From a virus: 39,010 bases of DNA. Both the position numbers and the translations under genes were made by a program. The DNA lies in the IMG/VR virus record IMGVR_UViG_3300018476_000022, positions 1-39,010 of that record. One strand, written 5' to 3'. Below the pieces are notes generated by a model. The model worked only from the letters and a program-made list of their open reading frames with translations. It was not told where the DNA came from and did no database searches. This document shows, in pieces, positions 11,750 to 34,528 of this stretch (positions are counted from its first letter, which is position 1; each line of letters opens with the position of its first letter).

Positions 11750-12049
11750 ATGATCCCTAACTACAACGATGTGACGCTGCCCGAGTTTGGCAGGGTCATC
11801 TACAAGGTCCAACGACAGGATGGGCCGACAGCTGTCGCAAACGACGGCCGTGGTCGCAAGTTTGTCGCAAGTGGGCCCAAGGCCGACGCCGTCGCGAAAA
11901 TCCTCGTCATGGCGATGATCAGTGGCGGCAGCGTCACTCGCAAAGGAATCGTCGCACTGACAGGCGCCTCTGCGTCGCGCGTCAGCGAGGTCGTTTGGGT
12001 CATGTCAACGAACCTCGACCACAACTTCAACGCCTATTTCGTTAGGTAA
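11750..12049 (+). CDS. small HTH protein, paralogue 1
   Basis: A 99-residue protein with a consensus promoter and AGGAGG site. Residues 36-85 (GRKFVASGPKADAVAKILVM, then VTRKGIVALTGASASRVSEV) carry a winged or simple HTH shared with 12864-13274 and 15941-16288. It is one of the few plus-strand genes, lies just downstream of the dyad array, and its stop codon falls inside a further perfect dyad (12040-12057). A regulator or array-binding protein acting on its own promoter region is a reasonable inference. A UUCG-loop terminator follows. Confidence 0.8.
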   Translation: MIPNYNDVTLPEFGRVIYKVQRQDGPTAVANDGRGRKFVASGPKADAVAKILVMAMISGGSVTRKGIVALTGASASRVSEVVWVMSTNLDHNFNAYFVR

Positions 12050-12863: not shown

Positions 12864-13274
12864 CTAGGCGGCGGGGGTTGCGGTGTTCTCGACGGTGGCC
12901 GGAACGAGCACAGGCTTCGCCTTGCGCTTCATCGCCTTGGTCTTGTCGAAACCAGGGTAGTTCGCCTCGAGAACCCAGACGACCTCGCTCACTCGGCTGG
13001 CTGAGCAACCGGTGGCGGCGACGATCTCGTCCCTCGTGAAGGGCTCACCGGTCTGCTGCCCGAACACGAGCATCTTCGCGATGGCCTCGGCCTTCGGCCC
13101 GGAAGCGATGAACTTCCTGCCGAGGCCCTCGTTCTGGTCCTTGGTCGGACCGTCCGGACGCTGCACGCGGAACACGTGGGTCGTGTACCCGGCCAGCGTC
13201 ACCTCCTGCCACGTTGTGGGCAGGTCGGTCTTGGCCTCTTCGGCCTCGACCTTCTGCGTTGCCTTGGTCGGCAT
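12864..13274 (-). CDS. small HTH protein, paralogue 2
   Basis: The open frame begins at 13319, but AAAGGA precedes the ATG at 13274-13272, giving 136 residues (MPTKATQKVEAEEAKTDLPT...). Residues 53-101 (GRKFIASGPKAEAIAKMLVF, FTRDEIVAATGCSASRVSEV) are clearly homologous to the 11750 protein; the segment FRVQRPDGPTKDQ also matches its QRQDGPTAV. A basic, Ala/Pro-rich C-terminal tail is extra. Own promoter and terminator make it an independent unit. Probably DNA-binding; role unknown. Confidence 0.8.
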   Translation of the reverse strand: MPTKATQKVEAEEAKTDLPTTWQEVTLAGYTTHVFRVQRPDGPTKDQNEGLGRKFIASGPKAEAIAKMLVFGQQTGEPFTRDEIVAATGCSASRVSEVVWVLEANYPGFDKTKAMKRKAKPVLVPATVENTATPAA

Positions 13275-13328
13275 TTCGGCATTTCCTTTCTCGATGGGGC
13301 TCCCGAGTGGAACCCTCAATCTACGACC

Positions 13329-15940: not shown

Positions 15941-16288
15941 CTACTCGGTAGTGGCTTCGCCGTTCTCCGACGGCGCTGCAACCTTGGCGCGAGTGGTGCC
16001 CATGCCGAGCACCTTCGCCACCTCAGCCACACGGCTGGGCGAGCAACCAACGACTGCTGCGATCTCCTTCCGAGACATTTCGCCCTTCCTCAGAAGGTCG
16101 GCGATGGCATCTCCCTTCGCGCCACCAGCCGTGAACACCCGGCCCTTGACGGCGAGCGCCTTCGACCCGTTGCGGGTGTCGAACGGTCCGTCCTCACGCG
16201 GCGGAGCCTTCGGCTTCGGCTCCTTCGCTGTCTCTTCAGCAGCCACCGCTTCCATCGCGGCTTCGCTGCCACGTGCCTTTGTCGCCAT
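15941..16288 (-). CDS. small HTH protein, paralogue 3
   Basis: ATG at 16288-16286 follows AAAGGA by 6 nt, so the second Met of the open frame is chosen; 115 residues. After an Ala/Glu/Lys/Pro-rich N-terminus comes GRVFTAGGAKGDAIADLLRK then MSRKEIAAVVGCSPSRVAEV, homologous to paralogues 1 and 2 but lacking their QRxDGPT segment in the same form (PFDTRNGSK instead). Own promoter; sits between the methyltransferase and replication genes. Confidence 0.78.
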   Translation of the reverse strand: MATKARGSEAAMEAVAAEETAKEPKPKAPPREDGPFDTRNGSKALAVKGRVFTAGGAKGDAIADLLRKGEMSRKEIAAVVGCSPSRVAEVAKVLGMGTTRAKVAAPSENGEATTE

Positions 16289-16328
16289 CTGCATTCCTTT
16301 CGTCTAGAGCCACCGTTGTGGCCTTCTC

Positions 16329-20138: not shown

Positions 20139-20873
20139 TTATCGCACCGCCCAGGGGCCGAGGCCCGAACGACGGTATGCCGCAGCCGTGCAGGCGACGT
20201 CCACGCTTACCGATGCACCCGGTGCCCGGTAGTCGCTGACCCCACACAGCTGTCGCCAGTAGGCCGGCATGTTGCCCTTGAAGTTGAGGCCGAACCGGCT
20301 GGTGGACAGATCGTCCCTGTCATTGACGTGGACACCACCAGGCGCACAACCTGACTCCCTGGCGCTGATCGCCATGAACGTGCTCACCGGTAGCCCGGCT
20401 GCCGCCAGGTGCGGTGCAAGCCAGTCACACCGGCCTGCCGCCAGAACGGCTCGAGGCCCACTGCCCACCGACACACTCCCCGTACCTCGGGGTGCCGACT
20501 GGGTGGTCCCTCGCGGCGTGGTCCGCTTCGTTGGAGCCACCGGTCGTCGCACCGGAATGGCCTGGTTGTTCAGCGCTTCTACGGCAAGGAACGTCCAGGG
20601 ATCGAAGACGGCATCCCTGAACACGTCGGCTCGAGCCTCTGCGCACTTGAGGCCGGCCGCCGTCATGGGCCCGAACTTCCCATCGAGAGGACCGACTTCG
20701 CAGCCCTTCCACTCGATGAGCGTCTGCATCTGCTGGACCCGATAGCCCGACTCACCTTGAACCAGCGTGAAGTCGCCGTCCTCGGGCCGGTACTCGGTGG
20801 CTGATGCCGTGGTCGCTGCTCCACCGACGACAGCGGTGGTTACCGCGGCGCCGGCTAGTAACTTTCGTATCAT
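20139..20873 (-). CDS. secreted peptidoglycan-binding, lysozyme-like protein
   Basis: A 244-residue protein with a classic Sec signal peptide (MIRKLLAGAAVTTAVVGGAA ... ending ASA at 23-25). Residues about 33-80 are a peptidoglycan-binding_1 domain (LVQGESGYRVQQMQTLIEW, GPLDGKFGPMTAAGLKC). After a Thr/Pro/Arg-rich linker (105-145) comes a lysozyme/transglycosylase-like domain, CDWLAPHLAAAGLPVSTFMA then ISARESGC with likely catalytic Glu173. It lies in the early-type operon, away from holin and endolysin, so it may remodel the host wall from outside (superinfection exclusion, lysis help) or be carried with the virion. Confidence 0.8.
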   Translation of the reverse strand: MIRKLLAGAAVTTAVVGGAATTASATEYRPEDGDFTLVQGESGYRVQQMQTLIEWKGCEVGPLDGKFGPMTAAGLKCAEARADVFRDAVFDPWTFLAVEALNNQAIPVRRPVAPTKRTTPRGTTQSAPRGTGSVSVGSGPRAVLAAGRCDWLAPHLAAAGLPVSTFMAISARESGCAPGGVHVNDRDDLSTSRFGLNFKGNMPAYWRQLCGVSDYRAPGASVSVDVACTAAAYRRSGLGPWAVR

Positions 20874-28578: not shown

Positions 28579-28962
28579 TCACGCCTGCTGACAGAACACA
28601 AGCAGCCGACCACCTGGCATCGATGTCTGCAGGACCAACGGCCAGCCGGCCAGTTGAGCAGCGCTGTTCGATGCGGTGATGACCTTCTTCACAACGACCC
28701 ACTTGATGAGCGGCCGGCCCTGGAACCCCGTCGTGAAGAACGTCTCCCCAACGTACATAGCGGGTAGGTTTCGAAACACGCTGCCATGAGTCGTGCGATG
28801 GCCAGCCAGTAGGTTCCCGAACATGTACGTGACATTGCCGTTATCGACTGTGGCTTGTCCCCCGCTCACGATCGACCGATGGATGCCAAGCCGATCAATG
28901 TGCAGTAGCGGAGTGCAGGCAGAAAGCAGTACCGCCAAGGGGACAAGCCACAGACGCCTCAC
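28579..28962 (-). CDS. sortase-like lipoprotein lacking the catalytic Cys
   Basis: GTG at 28962-28960 overlaps the surface protein stop (GTGA); 127 residues. MRRLWLVPLAVLLSAC is a lipoprotein signal with lipobox LSAC (Cys16). The rest follows class D/E sortases: IVSGGQATVDNGNVTYMFGN, LLAGHRTTHGSVFRNLPAMY (His55), GWPLVLQTSMPGGRLLVF (Arg119). The residue expected to be the nucleophile Cys (TC before the Arg) is Ser114; another Cys occurs only at 124. It may be inactive, use Ser, or work as a substrate-binding or immunity-type factor. Shorter than host sortases (about 200 residues). Confidence 0.68.
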   Translation of the reverse strand: MRRLWLVPLAVLLSACTPLLHIDRLGIHRSIVSGGQATVDNGNVTYMFGNLLAGHRTTHGSVFRNLPAMYVGETFFTTGFQGRPLIKWVVVKKVITASNSAAQLAGWPLVLQTSMPGGRLLVFCQQA

Positions 28963-30119
28963 GCCGTCCGCCTCTTGATGCCGAAGCCAACACCGATGGC
29001 ACCGAGGCCGACGCCGATGAGGATCGGCACCCAAGGTCCACCGGCGGGCGGAAGCGTGTCTCGAGGACTGTTCAGCGTATCAAGCGCATTGCCGGGCCCG
29101 AACGGTCCGTTGGGGTTGGCGCAGGCTGCCGTCTCCGGTGGATACGTGACGAAGGCTGTCGCCGTCGGGTTCACGGTGTAGGTCAGGTTGATGCCTTCAC
29201 GCAGGAACTCGTCACTGGGATCACGCACCCAGAATCCGGCTGCGTTCAGGTTCCACCCAGGCACATCGGCGATGGTCCCATCCGGGTTCACAGCTGTACC
29301 GGGGTAGAGCAGATCAACCGTAACACCCGGCTGGTACACGAGTTCTTGCGTGCTCACCACATTGCCGTTGACGTCTGCCATCGTGAGGACACCCGTACGC
29401 CCAGCCAGTTCGGGGAACGTGTTCTGGAACTCGATACGGATGGTGGGCACTTCGGCATCACAGACGGTTGCGGCCGCGCCGAAGGTGAACGGTGCGCCAG
29501 GCCCAGGCGTTGGTCCTATCGGTTGCGTGGTCAATGGCGTAGTGGTGGACGCGCCCACGGTAGAAGATGTTGATGACGGTACCGTCGATGTCGTGGTAGA
29601 ACTCGAAGGCGATGCTGTCGTGGTTACGCCTGGCGGTAGCGTCGTCGTAGTACCCGGCGGGATCGAGAACTGGCTCGTCGGAATGCTCGACGTTGTCGGG
29701 GCCACGAAGCATATACCACCTGCCGGTACCGGATAGATGTCGCCGTGCGCCAGGTGAGCAGCCAGCGCTGGGAAGCCGATTTCAATGATCTGGAAGTTCG
29801 CCGGGTTGCCAGGCGGCAGGTGGCAGATCGTCACCTTCTGCTCGACGCTAGTCGGCGGAGCCATCACCGTTGTCGTGGTAGCCGGCAGCGTGGTAAGCGT
29901 GGGCGGAGGTGGAGCCGGCGTGGTCGTCGTCTCAGCATGGGTCGTCGTGGGATACGTCCCATGGGTCGTCGTGGGGTAGCCGTGAGTCGTGGTCGGATGA
30001 TCGTAGTCGCCCGAAGCCACCACAACGACGTCTGGCTCCTGGCCGGTAGGCGCCATCAGCACGAGGGCAGCCGCACCCGTGATGACGGTGGCATAGAACG
30101 CGCTACGCAACAACGGCAT
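28959..30119 (-). CDS. LPPAG-anchored, Thr-rich surface protein
   Basis: A 386-residue protein with an N-terminal signal segment (MPLLRSAFYATVITGAAALV), a repeat region of YPTTTHG-like units (about 40-75), a VTICHLPPGNPANFQ ... AHLAHGD motif known from secreted bacterial proteins (about 93-130), a second Thr/Ser/Pro linker (140-200), and a beta-rich domain (205-340). The C-terminus is a cell-wall sorting signal: LPPAG at 356-360, hydrophobic 361-380, then KRR. It should be exported and linked to the host wall by a sortase. It sits between endolysin and a sortase-like gene, so it is expressed late. Role could be superinfection exclusion or surface change. Confidence 0.75.
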   Translation of the reverse strand: MPLLRSAFYATVITGAAALVLMAPTGQEPDVVVVASGDYDHPTTTHGYPTTTHGTYPTTTHAETTTTPAPPPPTLTTLPATTTTVMAPPTSVEQKVTICHLPPGNPANFQIIEIGFPALAAHLAHGDIYPVPAGGICFVAPTTSSIPTSQFSIPPGTTTTLPPGVTTTASPSSSTTTSTVPSSTSSTVGASTTTPLTTQPIGPTPGPGAPFTFGAAATVCDAEVPTIRIEFQNTFPELAGRTGVLTMADVNGNVVSTQELVYQPGVTVDLLYPGTAVNPDGTIADVPGWNLNAAGFWVRDPSDEFLREGINLTYTVNPTATAFVTYPPETAACANPNGPFGPGNALDTLNSPRDTLPPAGGPWVPILIGVGLGAIGVGFGIKRRTA

Positions 30120-31005
30120 CGAACTCTGCTCCCGTCCATGAGCGCAGACCGTCGCCCTGAGGCAGCGGGCCGAGGAGGATCAGACCGGCCAAGTCCTCGA
30201 CGTTGAGCGTGCGCAGCGGAGCCTTCAGCGTCTCGTACTGCTTGTACTCCGCCTCACTGCGAACCCAGGACACCGTGTGTCCCAGGCCGTTGGCATCGAT
30301 CATGCCGACGAACTTGGCGTTGGCGCCCTTAACGGCGATCCGGTAAAGCATGTCATCTCCTGATGTCGGGGGAGGCAGCGGCGAAGAGCCGGCTACCTCG
30401 GTGCGGAACTTGTTCATGTCCCACGGCTTGTCGTTGTTGGTTGACCACCGTGACGGGCCTCGAGGATCGATCTTACGTGGAGGACTCCACTCAGCATGGC
30501 TGCGAATGTCGCTGACGACTACCAGGCCGTAAGCACTGCAGAGCGCCTGGTTCATCCTGATGTACGCGTCCTGCTGAGCCTGCGGCCATGACTCACCGAC
30601 GCCGTTGTTCGCCGCCTCAATGCCGAAGCAACGGCTGTTCCCGCTGTCAGCCGGCACCGTGCCCTTCGAGCAGTGCCAGGTGGTTCCACCGCCTTCGGCC
30701 GAGCCGCCGCCCTTGCCAGCATGGTTCGAGGCGCCTGCGGCGATCGCCGTAAAGTGGCCAGTCCGATCCAGCAGACCGTTGCTGATCGGATTGTCTGGCC
30801 CGTTGACCATGTAGTTCAGGTCATTCTGCGGGGACGTCTGGCTGGCAGTGTGGTGGTCCACGATACCCAGCAGCGCTTCGAAGCCACCGCTGCTACGGCT
30901 GTTGTGCTCCCAACCGGGGTAGCCCGAACACGACATGACTTCACCTAGGACGTCTAACAGATTCGGGTAGCCTGGCGTTCTACCGTCAAGCCAGATGCTT
31001 CCCAT
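30103..31005 (-). CDS. endolysin, N-acetylmuramoyl-L-alanine amidase
   Basis: A 300-residue amidase_2-type enzyme: GIVDHHTAS (His51/52), SNHAGKG (93-99), CFGIEAANNG and SHAEWSPPRKIDPRG (His170, Asp180) form the zinc site and active centre. A Pro linker (SSPLPPPTSGDD, about 208-219) leads to a C-terminal segment that probably binds the wall (YRIAVKGANAKFVGMIDANG). GGAGG 4-5 nt before ATG. It cleaves stem peptides from muramic acid at lysis. Confidence 0.9.
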   Translation of the reverse strand: MGSIWLDGRTPGYPNLLDVLGEVMSCSGYPGWEHNSRSSGGFEALLGIVDHHTASQTSPQNDLNYMVNGPDNPISNGLLDRTGHFTAIAAGASNHAGKGGGSAEGGGTTWHCSKGTVPADSGNSRCFGIEAANNGVGESWPQAQQDAYIRMNQALCSAYGLVVVSDIRSHAEWSPPRKIDPRGPSRWSTNNDKPWDMNKFRTEVAGSSPLPPPTSGDDMLYRIAVKGANAKFVGMIDANGLGHTVSWVRSEAEYKQYETLKAPLRTLNVEDLAGLILLGPLPQGDGLRSWTGAEFDAVVA

Positions 31006-31108
31006 GCTTCCTCCGCTTCTTACGTTTCTTCACTTTGGGGTCGAGGCCAACACGATGCTCGTACTTCTTACGGAACTTACGCTTCTTCCGAGCGCGTCGA
31101 TCGAACAT
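30986..31108 (-). CDS. 40-residue polybasic peptide between holin and endolysin
   Basis: ATG at 31108-31106, within the end of the holin gene; it overlaps the endolysin start by 20 bp. MFDRRARKKRKFRKKYEHRV then GLDPKVKKRKKRRKHGKHLA has more than half Lys/Arg/His. No clear ribosome site was identified; its end contains the endolysin ribosome site, so translation may couple to it. It resembles a ribosomal-tail-like or nucleic-acid-binding peptide; a membrane-active role in lysis is possible. Confidence 0.55.
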   Translation of the reverse strand: MFDRRARKKRKFRKKYEHRVGLDPKVKKRKKRRKHGKHLA

Positions 31109-31325
31109 CGCCATGCTGCGGCCAGGAGAACGTGATCACGCCACCGATCAGGAGCAGGGCGCCGATGACAACAATCAGGACTTGTCGGAAACCATTGAAG
31201 TTGACGTGCTCCAGCGTAATGGCGAGAACGAGCACGTCGACAAGGATGATGATGCCAAGCAGTCCGAGGATAGCTGCAACGATACGCTTAGTTACGTCAT
31301 CCGTCGAACTCAAGACGGCCGCCAC
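31077..31325 (-). CDS. holin-like membrane protein
   Basis: An 82-residue protein with two transmembrane segments (about residues 15-37 and 46-66; ILGLLGIIILVDVLVLAI and VLIVVIGALLLIGGVITF) and a charged C-terminus. Size, topology and position just ahead of the endolysin identify a holin, which opens the membrane at lysis. Confidence 0.75.
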   Translation of the reverse strand: MAAVLSSTDDVTKRIVAAILGLLGIIILVDVLVLAITLEHVNFNGFRQVLIVVIGALLLIGGVITFSWPQHGDVRSTRSEEA

Positions 31326-31528
31326 TCACGTGCGATCTTGTCGATGATGGCGGCGAAGACGAAGACGTGGAGTGCCTTCTCGTAATCGTGCATCTCATCG
31401 AAGTCAGGGTAGTAATCATCGTCGGCTATGCGGCGACGTTCACGAGCGAACAGCCGAGCCAATGCTTCCGGATCGGGTGGCGCAGAGTCCACCACGTCAT
31501 CCGGAGTGATGTCGCCAAAGTCACTCAC
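31310..31528 (-). CDS. 72-residue acidic hypothetical protein
   Basis: MSDFGDITPDDVVDSAPPDP then EALARLFARERRRIADDDYY and EKALHVFVFAAIIDKIAREW. Overlaps the fibre stop (ATGA) and the holin start. Helical with an acidic N-terminus. Position suggests a role in lysis or late assembly; no family recognised. Confidence 0.7.
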   Translation of the reverse strand: MSDFGDITPDDVVDSAPPDPEALARLFARERRRIADDDYYPDFDEMHDYEKALHVFVFAAIIDKIAREWRPS

Positions 31529-32712
31529 GTTGCCCTCAGTTCTGCGATCTCAGCTCGCATGTCCTTGACCGCTTGCCATAGTACCGCGACCATGCCGCTG
31601 AGGTCTAGCCCGAGAGAACTGCCCTCGCCTAACGTCAGACGTGGTGCAGCCGCTTGCACGTCCTCGGCTACGAAGCCATACCGGTAGAGCGGCGGCGGCA
31701 TATCCATGCGAACGATATACGGATTGTCCTCGATGTCGATGTGGGTTACCTCGACGGCGGCAGCCAACTCCGGCTGCAGGTCGTGGTATTCGACCGGCTG
31801 GATCATGTCGAGGGCATCCACCGCTGTAGCAGCCTCGAGCGGTGCGATCTCATCTTTGTACTGCTGCGCTGAGATGACCTGGAATGCCGAGGCGAGCAAC
31901 TTGACGTATCCGCTGTTGTCTCCATTCAACGCGCCGAGGTAGATGTTGCCGTCGGAGAATAACTGCAATGATGCCGTCCAGCCGGTGATGTGATCGGCAA
32001 ACCCGAGAGCACATTGGCCGCCGCCACCGACTCTGCCAATAGTGAGCGGCCGCTCGTTGTACCGGTTGCCAACCGGCATACCAACAATATTCGACACGCC
32101 CTGGCCAGCCGTACCCCACTGCGCGCCCATAAGTAACTGCGCCTGAGGCGAACCGATAGCACCGAACGCCTGCATATACGATTGCCCAGTTGAGCGTACA
32201 ATGATGTTACCGGTGCTCTGTACAACCGGTGTCTGCACGAGGCTGTTAGCGTAAACGGCTGCACCATAAACGCCGGCTGTTCCTACGATATTACCAGCCG
32301 TGTCGAAATAAGTATTGCTGCCGAGGATGCGAAGTGCGCTGGGTTCAGCACGGATGCTCCAGCCGCCGATGTCGACAACCTTCCCGTTAGCATTGCTCCA
32401 GAACTGCGCGACCATCTCACCACGTCCCGCATTCACTACGCGCAAAGCGTTATCATATAGGTCGAGGCTGAACGCTTCCGATGAAGGCACACCTTGCGTA
32501 CCATCCCCGGCTGCAAACTGAACCTGTGGATACGAGTTGCCAACCGGATCATTGATGATGACCGGTGACGTGAACGCTTGAATCGTACCCGGCGGCCCCT
32601 GCGGTCCTTGCGCACCGGTGGAACCAGTCGGCCCAACGGGACCAATCTCGCCCTGCGGACCCTGGATGCCCTCGGGTCCACGTATGTTCGTGCTCAAGTC
32701 CCAGGTCGGCAT
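31525..32712 (-). CDS. collagen-like tail fibre with S74 chaperone domain, copy 2
   Basis: A 395-residue protein. Residues about 9-42 are Gly-x-y repeats (RGPEGIQGPQGEIGPVGPTG ...). A beta-rich body follows, then a C-terminal intramolecular chaperone (peptidase S74) from about 295: ASAFQVISAQQYKDEIAPL with the Ser/Lys pair spaced five residues apart, FVAEDVQAAAPRL, LDLSGMVAVLWQAVKDMRAE. The domain trimerises fibres and then cuts itself off. Paralogue of 33032-34528. Confidence 0.82.
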   Translation of the reverse strand: MPTWDLSTNIRGPEGIQGPQGEIGPVGPTGSTGAQGPQGPPGTIQAFTSPVIINDPVGNSYPQVQFAAGDGTQGVPSSEAFSLDLYDNALRVVNAGRGEMVAQFWSNANGKVVDIGGWSIRAEPSALRILGSNTYFDTAGNIVGTAGVYGAAVYANSLVQTPVVQSTGNIIVRSTGQSYMQAFGAIGSPQAQLLMGAQWGTAGQGVSNIVGMPVGNRYNERPLTIGRVGGGGQCALGFADHITGWTASLQLFSDGNIYLGALNGDNSGYVKLLASAFQVISAQQYKDEIAPLEAATAVDALDMIQPVEYHDLQPELAAAVEVTHIDIEDNPYIVRMDMPPPLYRYGFVAEDVQAAAPRLTLGEGSSLGLDLSGMVAVLWQAVKDMRAEIAELRAT

Positions 32713-33035
32713 TACGCCTCCGGCTCAGTCTCCGGCTCGGGATCGTACGGCCAGTGAGCACCGATAGCGGCGGTGAGAGCACCGTCAGTGATGATGTCAG
32801 CATCGTGACCAGGAGCACCACGACCGGCTTGCAGCGCTGCTTCGTACGCAGCCTCGGTATCGACAGCCACCGGGTACATCAGCGGCTCAACGCCAATCTG
32901 ACCGGCGGCGAGCGTCTTACCGTAAGTGCTGTCCGCCTTCAACTCGTCGAACAGCAACTCCTTGTGCGCCATCGCCAGAACTCGAGCACGTAGCGCTGGG
33001 TCAGTTGCGGCTTGGGCGATGGATGATGCACTCAT
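32712..33035 (-). CDS. 107-residue protein between fibre genes
   Basis: MSASSIAQAATDPALRARVLAM then AHKELLFDELKADSTYG and an acidic end (HWPYDPEPETEPEA). It overlaps both fibre genes. Similar small helical proteins occur between actinophage minor tail genes; they may be fibre chaperones. Function inferred from position only. Confidence 0.65.
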   Translation of the reverse strand: MSASSIAQAATDPALRARVLAMAHKELLFDELKADSTYGKTLAAGQIGVEPLMYPVAVDTEAAYEAALQAGRGAPGHDADIITDGALTAAIGAHWPYDPEPETEPEA

Positions 33036-34528
33036 GATGCTCCTTCGAGTTCAATGACCCGGTTGTTGAGTTCCTTTACTGCTTGCCAGAGTACCGCGAT
33101 CAGGCCGCTGAGGTCGAGGCCCAGCGTTTCCTCGTTGCCCATCGTGAGCCGGGGAGCCACCGCTTGCACGTCCTCAGCCACGAAGCCATAACGGTACAGC
33201 GGTTCAGGACGTTCAGGCTGCAGCATCCGTCCTTTACGATCTGGCTTCCCGTCCTTACCCATTGCGGGAATGGCCTTTGCCGCCAGTTCGGGTTGCAGAT
33301 CATGATACTCCACAGGCTGAACCGCCGCAACGGTGGCTAGAGCAGTTGGAGCCAACGGTGTGATCTCATCCTTGAACCGTCGACCGCTGACAACCTGGAA
33401 CGCTGAGGCCAGCGCTTTGATGTAGCCGGTGTTGCCACCGTTGAGAATGCCGAGATAGTAGTTGCCGTCGCTCGACAGTTGTAGACCCATCGTATAGCCG
33501 AGGATATGATCGACCAAGCCGATGCCGCAGTGACCCGCAGCGCCGGGGTGACGACCAATGATGAGCGAACGTTGGGACCAGTCACCCCCGGTGGGCTGAG
33601 TGGCAATGTAAACGCCTGGGTTGCCAGTACCCCAGCCCGCCCCGACCAGCATGTTGCACGCTGGCGAGCCGATTGCGCCTCGACCCTGAATGTCGATCTG
33701 GTAGATCGATCGTAAATAAAGCGCGTTGGTCGAGTTCTGCACGTAGGGACATTCCATATACCACGGGAAGGTCACGGCACCGTTCGCTGTCAAGTTTCCG
33801 GGAATGGTGACATTACCCTTCGGCAGCAGGTTTCCAACGCTGTCGATAGCCAACTCGGCCGACGTGCGATCGGCACCGTAGAAGAAGCGAAGATAGTTGT
33901 CGACGGTGCTGGACTGCAGCACCCACGCTGCGCCCTCAAGGCCAAACTCAGATACACCTGCCGACGGCTTGTAAAACGTGGCAACGGGAACCGTTAGGGC
34001 ACGACTGGAGAACAAACGAAGCTGATCGTTGTACAGGCTAAACTCATACGAGTACGGGTTTGGCCCAACACCATTCTGACCATCACCGCTGGCGAACCGT
34101 AGCGTTGGAAAGTCGATGCCAACAGCATCGGGAATGACCAGCGGGCTCGTGATGGTTGATGAACCCGGCAAGCCTTGCGGACCGGATGGACCCTGCGGAC
34201 CCTGAATGCCTTGCGGCCCTTTCAGGTTCCCACGCGACGCCCAACTGGTGGCGCTAATCTTCTCGTAGTACGTACCAGTTGCGCTGTCGAGATACCAGTC
34301 ATTCTGAACGGCACCAGCCGGCACGGTATCGTTGGGGATGCCCGTGCCGCTGAACCATTTCTCGCCAGCCGTACCCGGTGGTCCTGTCGAACCAGTCGGA
34401 CCCGGCACGCCTTGAGGACCAGACGCACCAGTAGAGCCGGCTGGACCCGTGCTGCCAGTCGGACCAATCGGACCTTGCACGCCCTGCGGCCCTCTGATGT
34501 TCGTTTCGAGAGTCCACAGCTCGCTCAT
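33032..34528 (-). CDS. collagen-like tail fibre with S74 chaperone domain, copy 1
   Basis: A 498-residue protein with two blocks of Gly-x-y repeats (about 11-52 and 98-122) separated by EKWFSGTGIPNDTVPAGAVQ, a beta-rich body with IYQIDIQGRGAIGSP, and a C-terminal S74 domain: ASAFQVVSGRRFKDEITPL (Ser/Lys pair), YRYGFVAEDVQAVAPRLTMG, LDLSGLIAVLWQAVKEL. Compared with copy 2 it has an inserted KDGKPDRKGRMLQPE loop in the chaperone. Likely receptor-binding fibre. Confidence 0.85.
   Translation of the reverse strand: MSELWTLETNIRGPQGVQGPIGPTGSTGPAGSTGASGPQGVPGPTGSTGPPGTAGEKWFSGTGIPNDTVPAGAVQNDWYLDSATGTYYEKISATSWASRGNLKGPQGIQGPQGPSGPQGLPGSSTITSPLVIPDAVGIDFPTLRFASGDGQNGVGPNPYSYEFSLYNDQLRLFSSRALTVPVATFYKPSAGVSEFGLEGAAWVLQSSTVDNYLRFFYGADRTSAELAIDSVGNLLPKGNVTIPGNLTANGAVTFPWYMECPYVQNSTNALYLRSIYQIDIQGRGAIGSPACNMLVGAGWGTGNPGVYIATQPTGGDWSQRSLIIGRHPGAAGHCGIGLVDHILGYTMGLQLSSDGNYYLGILNGGNTGYIKALASAFQVVSGRRFKDEITPLAPTALATVAAVQPVEYHDLQPELAAKAIPAMGKDGKPDRKGRMLQPERPEPLYRYGFVAEDVQAVAPRLTMGNEETLGLDLSGLIAVLWQAVKELNNRVIELEGAS

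Follow-up and report, generated by a model that had tools for sequence, protein, structure and literature searches.

A sortase-like phage lipoprotein with serine at the nucleophile position, encoded beside a surface protein with a sorting-type tail

The defining feature of a sortase is its catalytic cysteine, essential in every textbook example. The Llp lipoprotein of phage T5 is a phage envelope protein that blocks re-adsorption. The described systems closest to the locus analysed here are the class E sortases of Actinobacteria (PF04203; SrtE1, PDB 5cuw), the LPXTG/LAXTG substrates sorted to the cell wall, and the phage protein family phrog_17228 (TP1604 gp43, Samy SAMYPH_76, Zuko gp45), whose members are exported proteins in 20 phage records, annotated as peptidase, cysteine protease or hypothetical; the database record for Samy notes similarity to sortase 4D70. 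In SrtE1, the beta3/beta4 and beta6/beta7 loops contact the sorting signal (PMC5148588). In the literature searched, neither phage-encoded sortases nor phage LPXTG proteins are described, and the sole candidates for ordinary sortases in isolated phages were unannotated contigs, faecal and Listeria records, which are probably bacterial DNA.

The window analysed here is an entire IMG/VR virus record (IMGVR_UViG_3300018476_000022; 39,010 bases) and contains terminase, portal, capsid, tape-measure and endolysin genes. Its terminase is best matched by those of Streptomyces phages, TG1 and phiC31 among them (about 32% identity), so that an actinobacterial host is likely; the habitat is soil or freshwater. 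The preliminary description of this DNA had pointed to two late genes that overlap in a GTGA, one for a surface protein and one for a sortase-like lipoprotein. Both were confirmed on the minus strand as described, and their late placement agrees with a position in the lysis cassette of the window:

28579-28962, minus strand: sortase-like lipoprotein, 127 aa, with His55, Ser114 and Arg119 (sequence, Pfam, fold and profile alignment)
28959-30119, minus strand: surface protein, 386 aa, with signal peptide, Thr-rich stalk, ICHLPPGNP..HGD module, beta-sandwich core and LPPAGG sorting-type tail
28962-28979, minus strand: AGAGG, Shine-Dalgarno-like, preceding the GTG with which the lipoprotein gene starts (sequence)
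29085-29504, minus strand: conserved core domain in the surface protein, modelled with confidence (pLDDT 87, AlphaFold2)
30103-31005, minus strand: endolysin, N-acetylmuramoyl-L-alanine amidase (family searches)
31077-31325, minus strand: small membrane protein preceding the endolysin, holin-like by position only

The endolysin gene lies directly upstream of the surface gene, the end of the former sharing 17 bases with the start of the latter, and the GTG start of the lipoprotein gene at 28962 overlaps the TGA stop of the surface gene; Shine-Dalgarno-like sequences precede both genes of the pair. Family searches gave no significant match for the small membrane protein. Elsewhere in the window, we observed two paralogous collagen-like tail fibres (31525-32712 and 33032-34528, minus strand) whose C-terminal ends resemble each other and have the look of intramolecular-chaperone domains, three small paralogues (11750-12049, plus; 12864-13319 and 15941-16294, minus) that share a pattern like ASGPKADAIAKxL...GCSASRVSEVxxVL and are possibly DNA-binding, and a weak peptidoglycan-binding domain in an exported protein (20139-20873, minus) whose gene is distant from the lysis cassette.

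The 127-aa protein has a lipobox (LSAC) and the motifs AGHRTTHG, LVLQTS and GRLLVF. It matched the Pfam Sortase model (PF04203) at 18.9 bits (E 1.3e-3), below the curated cut-off of 26.6, which one viral relative, L052, exceeds (46.6 bits). An AlphaFold2 model built from a ten-row viral alignment (pLDDT 73, pTM 0.68) retrieved sortases for all of the best 50 matches listed both in Foldseek (best E 6e-4) and in VIA-align (Z 8.3 for SrtC1 and 8.0 for a class E sortase), and the profile of the viral family matched SrtE1 in the PDB (E 2.8e-9). Aligned by hhalign with 15 cellular class E sortases collected for the analysis (98.6%, E 6.4e-16), the lipoprotein family places LVLQTSMP....GGRLLVF on the class E sequence LLTLTTCNPRWASTQRLIVF; the catalytic Cys, His and Arg correspond to Ser114, His55 and Arg119, respectively. 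The fold matches, the hhalign comparison and the PDB profile match rule out a chance resemblance and confirm the sortase relationship claimed for the small protein, with its AGHRTTHG motif and Arg strand, as class E-like; the predicted structure, proposed as a check on that claim, is likewise sortase-like.

The lipoprotein and the class E enzymes have in common the fold, the GHRTTHG histidine motif, the beta7-beta8 layout and, in the window protein, the Arg position, which is variable across the viral family. The viral protein differs in having Ser for Cys, a lipoprotein anchor and reduced substrate loops, and its sortase domain comprises about 105 residues compared to 140. The long class E beta3/beta4 loop, with its substrate-binding Tyr, and the long beta6/beta7 loop fall in gaps of the lipoprotein alignment, the former loop being missing and the latter, like beta7/beta8, shortened; the reduction or loss of substrate-contacting loops argues against ordinary sorting. 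These sequence and model comparisons show the 127-aa lipoprotein to be a true sortase homologue, class E-like but reduced.

As a single query, the window lipoprotein retrieved no homologues from viral contigs or isolated phages, so that alignments were needed to find its viral relatives, and iterative searches added nine distinct viral proteins that share 29-71% identity with it. Ten residues are invariant in all ten aligned proteins: Asp40, Gly42, Val44, His55, His59, Gly60, Phe63, Gly72, Gln112 and Ser114. Arg119 is present in the window protein and in that of contig L046 and absent from most of the other homologues. Comparison with the nearest relative (dN 0.25, dS 1.42) indicates purifying selection on the lipoprotein. 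A register with Thr113 on the Cys was ruled out: Cys113, adjoining the invariant Ser, occurs only in L052, and both hhalign and the QSC/QTC motifs of Streptomyces-phage proteins support position 114. With Ser in ten of ten divergent viral proteins, neither a sequencing error for Cys nor drift accounts for Ser114, and the earlier placement of a Ser where the nucleophile Cys belongs is borne out by the hhalign register. The accompanying claim of a dead pseudo-sortase finds no support as it was put, since Ser114 and His55 are kept in the ten viral proteins and the Arg varies.

In several hundred Actinomycetota genomes, the Cys is present in nearly all of the sortase loci read. Two bacterial homologues depart from it: a chromosomal one in which Ser occupies the Cys position (LLILQTSHP) and an Arg is kept on the last strand (L102/L133; G275:C10:189052-189576), and a class E-like one in which Glu replaces the catalytic Cys (LTLTSEHP; L149; G395:C137:25660-26073). 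A structure match in the viral library identified a protein of Streptomyces phage TP1604 and, through it, the family phrog_17228, in which six of six aligned members carry Cys at the nucleophile position (LVLQSC, LVLQTC or VALQTC):

L164, 14396-14992: Streptomyces-phage member with Cys
L165, 3195-3821: Streptomyces-phage member with Cys
L166, 3210-3836: Streptomyces-phage member with Cys
L167, 3132-3836: Streptomyces-phage member with Cys
L168, 3216-3830: Streptomyces-phage member with Cys
L169, 2168-2836: Streptomyces-phage member with Cys

These proteins look like phage relatives of sortases. They resemble the window lipoprotein as small, exported, sortase-like phage proteins and in the Q..ID.G, histidine and LQxC/LQxS motifs, but differ from it in the Cys and in lacking a lipobox and, in the regions read, an adjoining LPxTG gene. 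The phrog_17228 HMM did not match the window lipoprotein at E 1, hhalign of the viral Ser family with phrog_17228 gave E 3e-4 at a probability of 39%, and in a tree the Cys clade branches apart from the Ser-bearing viral proteins, which cluster, except for L052, with weak support (79/79). Kinship of the Cys clade to the window lipoprotein is only suggestive. The phage relatives read have either Ser (n=10) or Cys (n=6) at the nucleophile position and nothing else, and the presence of Cys at the Ser114 position makes a changed nucleophile as possible as a lost one.

The N-terminus of the 386-aa protein is hydrophobic, its Thr content is 17% and its C-terminal tail is LPPAGGPWVPILIGVGLGAIGVGFGIKRRTA. 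By sequence and hydropathy the protein shares several features with LPXTG/LAXTG wall-sorting substrates (signal peptide, stalk, LPxxG, hydrophobic stretch and positive end), and some homologues have canonical LPxTG tails, all of which supports its earlier description as an exported surface protein of the LPxxG type. It differs from those substrates in being phage-encoded and in having Ala, not Thr, ahead of the Gly, at the cleavage position of LPPAG, and the curated anchor models of Pfam and NCBIfam did not match it. Relatives of its core occur in 27 other viral contigs, with 67-84% identity over the core domain to 25 aligned homologues and 46% to that of L046; none was found in the isolated phages searched, and one anchor-tailed Cellulomonas protein gave a weak core match (28% identity over the domain). 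The core has dN 0.12 compared to dS 2.2, again a sign of purifying selection. No Pfam family matched it above its cut-off, and fold searches returned only generic beta-sandwiches (best Z 7.4), with no distinctive match.

Members of the surface-core family end in one of two ways. Nine, from the window and eight other contigs and including that of L046, have full anchor tails with LPxTG- or LPPAG-type ends. All 17 distinct unanchored tails, which come from 19 contigs (L017, L021-L024, L026, L027, L029-L034 and L036-L041), have no membrane segment and stop exactly at L-[PV]-x-T-X, the final residue being R, A, L, V, E or G; shuffled tails would be expected to give 0.05 such endings, compared to the 17 observed. 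The last five residues of these tails are 75% identical and the preceding 25 only 22%. A frameshift restoring an anchor behind the stop was seen in none of six unanchored homologues inspected. We know of no sortase substrate in which an exported protein carries a terminal sorting motif without a membrane retention segment.

The search for the pair in other phage genomes that had been proposed found it again as an overlapping unit in L046, where a 578-aa Thr-rich protein with an LPPAGG-hydrophobic-RR end overlaps, by ATGA, a 128-aa lipoprotein 71% identical to that of the window, in the same gene order. Both families occur in five contigs (the window, G012, G023, G028 and G033), in all of which the surface protein is anchor-tailed; the two genes are non-adjacent in G012, G023 and G033. 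In most surface-core contigs, which may be incomplete, the Ser-protein was not detected. The Ser-protein gene of L051 lies near those for an amidase, a small membrane protein and a transglycosylase-like lipoprotein with no adjoining LPxTG protein, and in L057 (5372-5884) the Ser-protein gene overlaps an upstream gene for an exported collagen-like protein, in place of a Thr-rich one, and has an amidase downstream but no LPxTG protein beside it. A functional link between the two proteins is consequently likely in the window and L046, but not universal.

The reading we favour, tentatively, is that the pair forms a late module by which a phage protein is displayed on the envelope of the host, the lipoprotein acting on the tail of its partner. 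The 386-aa protein would be exported and then held in the membrane or wall by its sorting-type tail, and the Thr-rich stalk would carry the conserved beta-sandwich domain outward from the host envelope. The membrane-tethered lipoprotein most likely engages the LPPAG tail at the membrane, and we infer that the two proteins are physical partners; Ser114 could act as a working nucleophile with slow chemistry, as a stable-ester trap or as a binding-site residue. The most likely benefit would be reduced phage adsorption to the infected cell or to its debris; exclusion of rivals would be an alternative. The surface protein may, by analogy, resemble T5 Llp in its role, as an envelope protein made during infection.

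The display module is favoured by the recurrence of the overlapping pair in L046, by purifying selection on both genes, by the anchor tails in all five contigs that bear both families and by the endolysin gene next to the pair in the window; the terminase-side location of the pair in L046, the surface-core contigs in which no Ser-protein was detected and the Ser-proteins of L051 and L057, which have no LPxTG neighbour, weigh against it. The invariance of Ser114 and His55 argues for a role of the lipoprotein, and the loss of the Arg and of the substrate loops against ordinary transpeptidation. A catalytically dead sortase that binds sorting signals, serving its partner as chaperone or membrane anchor or acting as a decoy for the host sortase or its substrates, is a possible if somewhat doubtful alternative: the Cys is lost, the Arg variable and the loops missing, and the lipobox would keep the protein at the membrane, the site of sorting, but a strictly invariant Ser together with a retained His55 is not obviously needed for mere binding. 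An active serine sortase, with Ser114 and His55 forming an ester with the partner tail for transfer to the wall or release, would be in keeping with the restriction of the nucleophile position to Cys or Ser among the phage relatives read, the invariance of His55 and Gln112 and the unusual LPPAGG tail common to both contigs with adjacent genes. We nevertheless consider it unlikely, given the unconserved Arg, the deleted loops and the fact that Cys-to-Ser changes usually cripple sortases; that such a serine-nucleophile enzyme covalently processes or anchors the phage's own LPPAG surface protein on the infected cell appears distinctly unlikely. A direct role of the sortase-like protein in lysis or at the cell wall (wall remodelling, lysis timing), with the adjacent surface gene incidental, would suit the lysis-gene neighbourhoods in the window, L051 and L057 but is improbable, the overlapping pair being kept in L046 next to the terminase, away from lysis genes, from which other Ser-protein members are also distant.

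A viral lineage in which Ser is kept at the sortase nucleophile position, alongside a surface protein of the sortase-substrate type, would represent new chemistry in a sorting enzyme or, alternatively, a natural binder of sorting signals. A phage serine sortase, if true, would be a sorting enzyme of the sortase fold working without cysteine. Either outcome for the Ser-bearing lineage would be useful to know and easy to test, and the pair suggests an overlooked phage strategy, in which the sorting logic of the host itself would serve to dress its wall with proteins of the phage.
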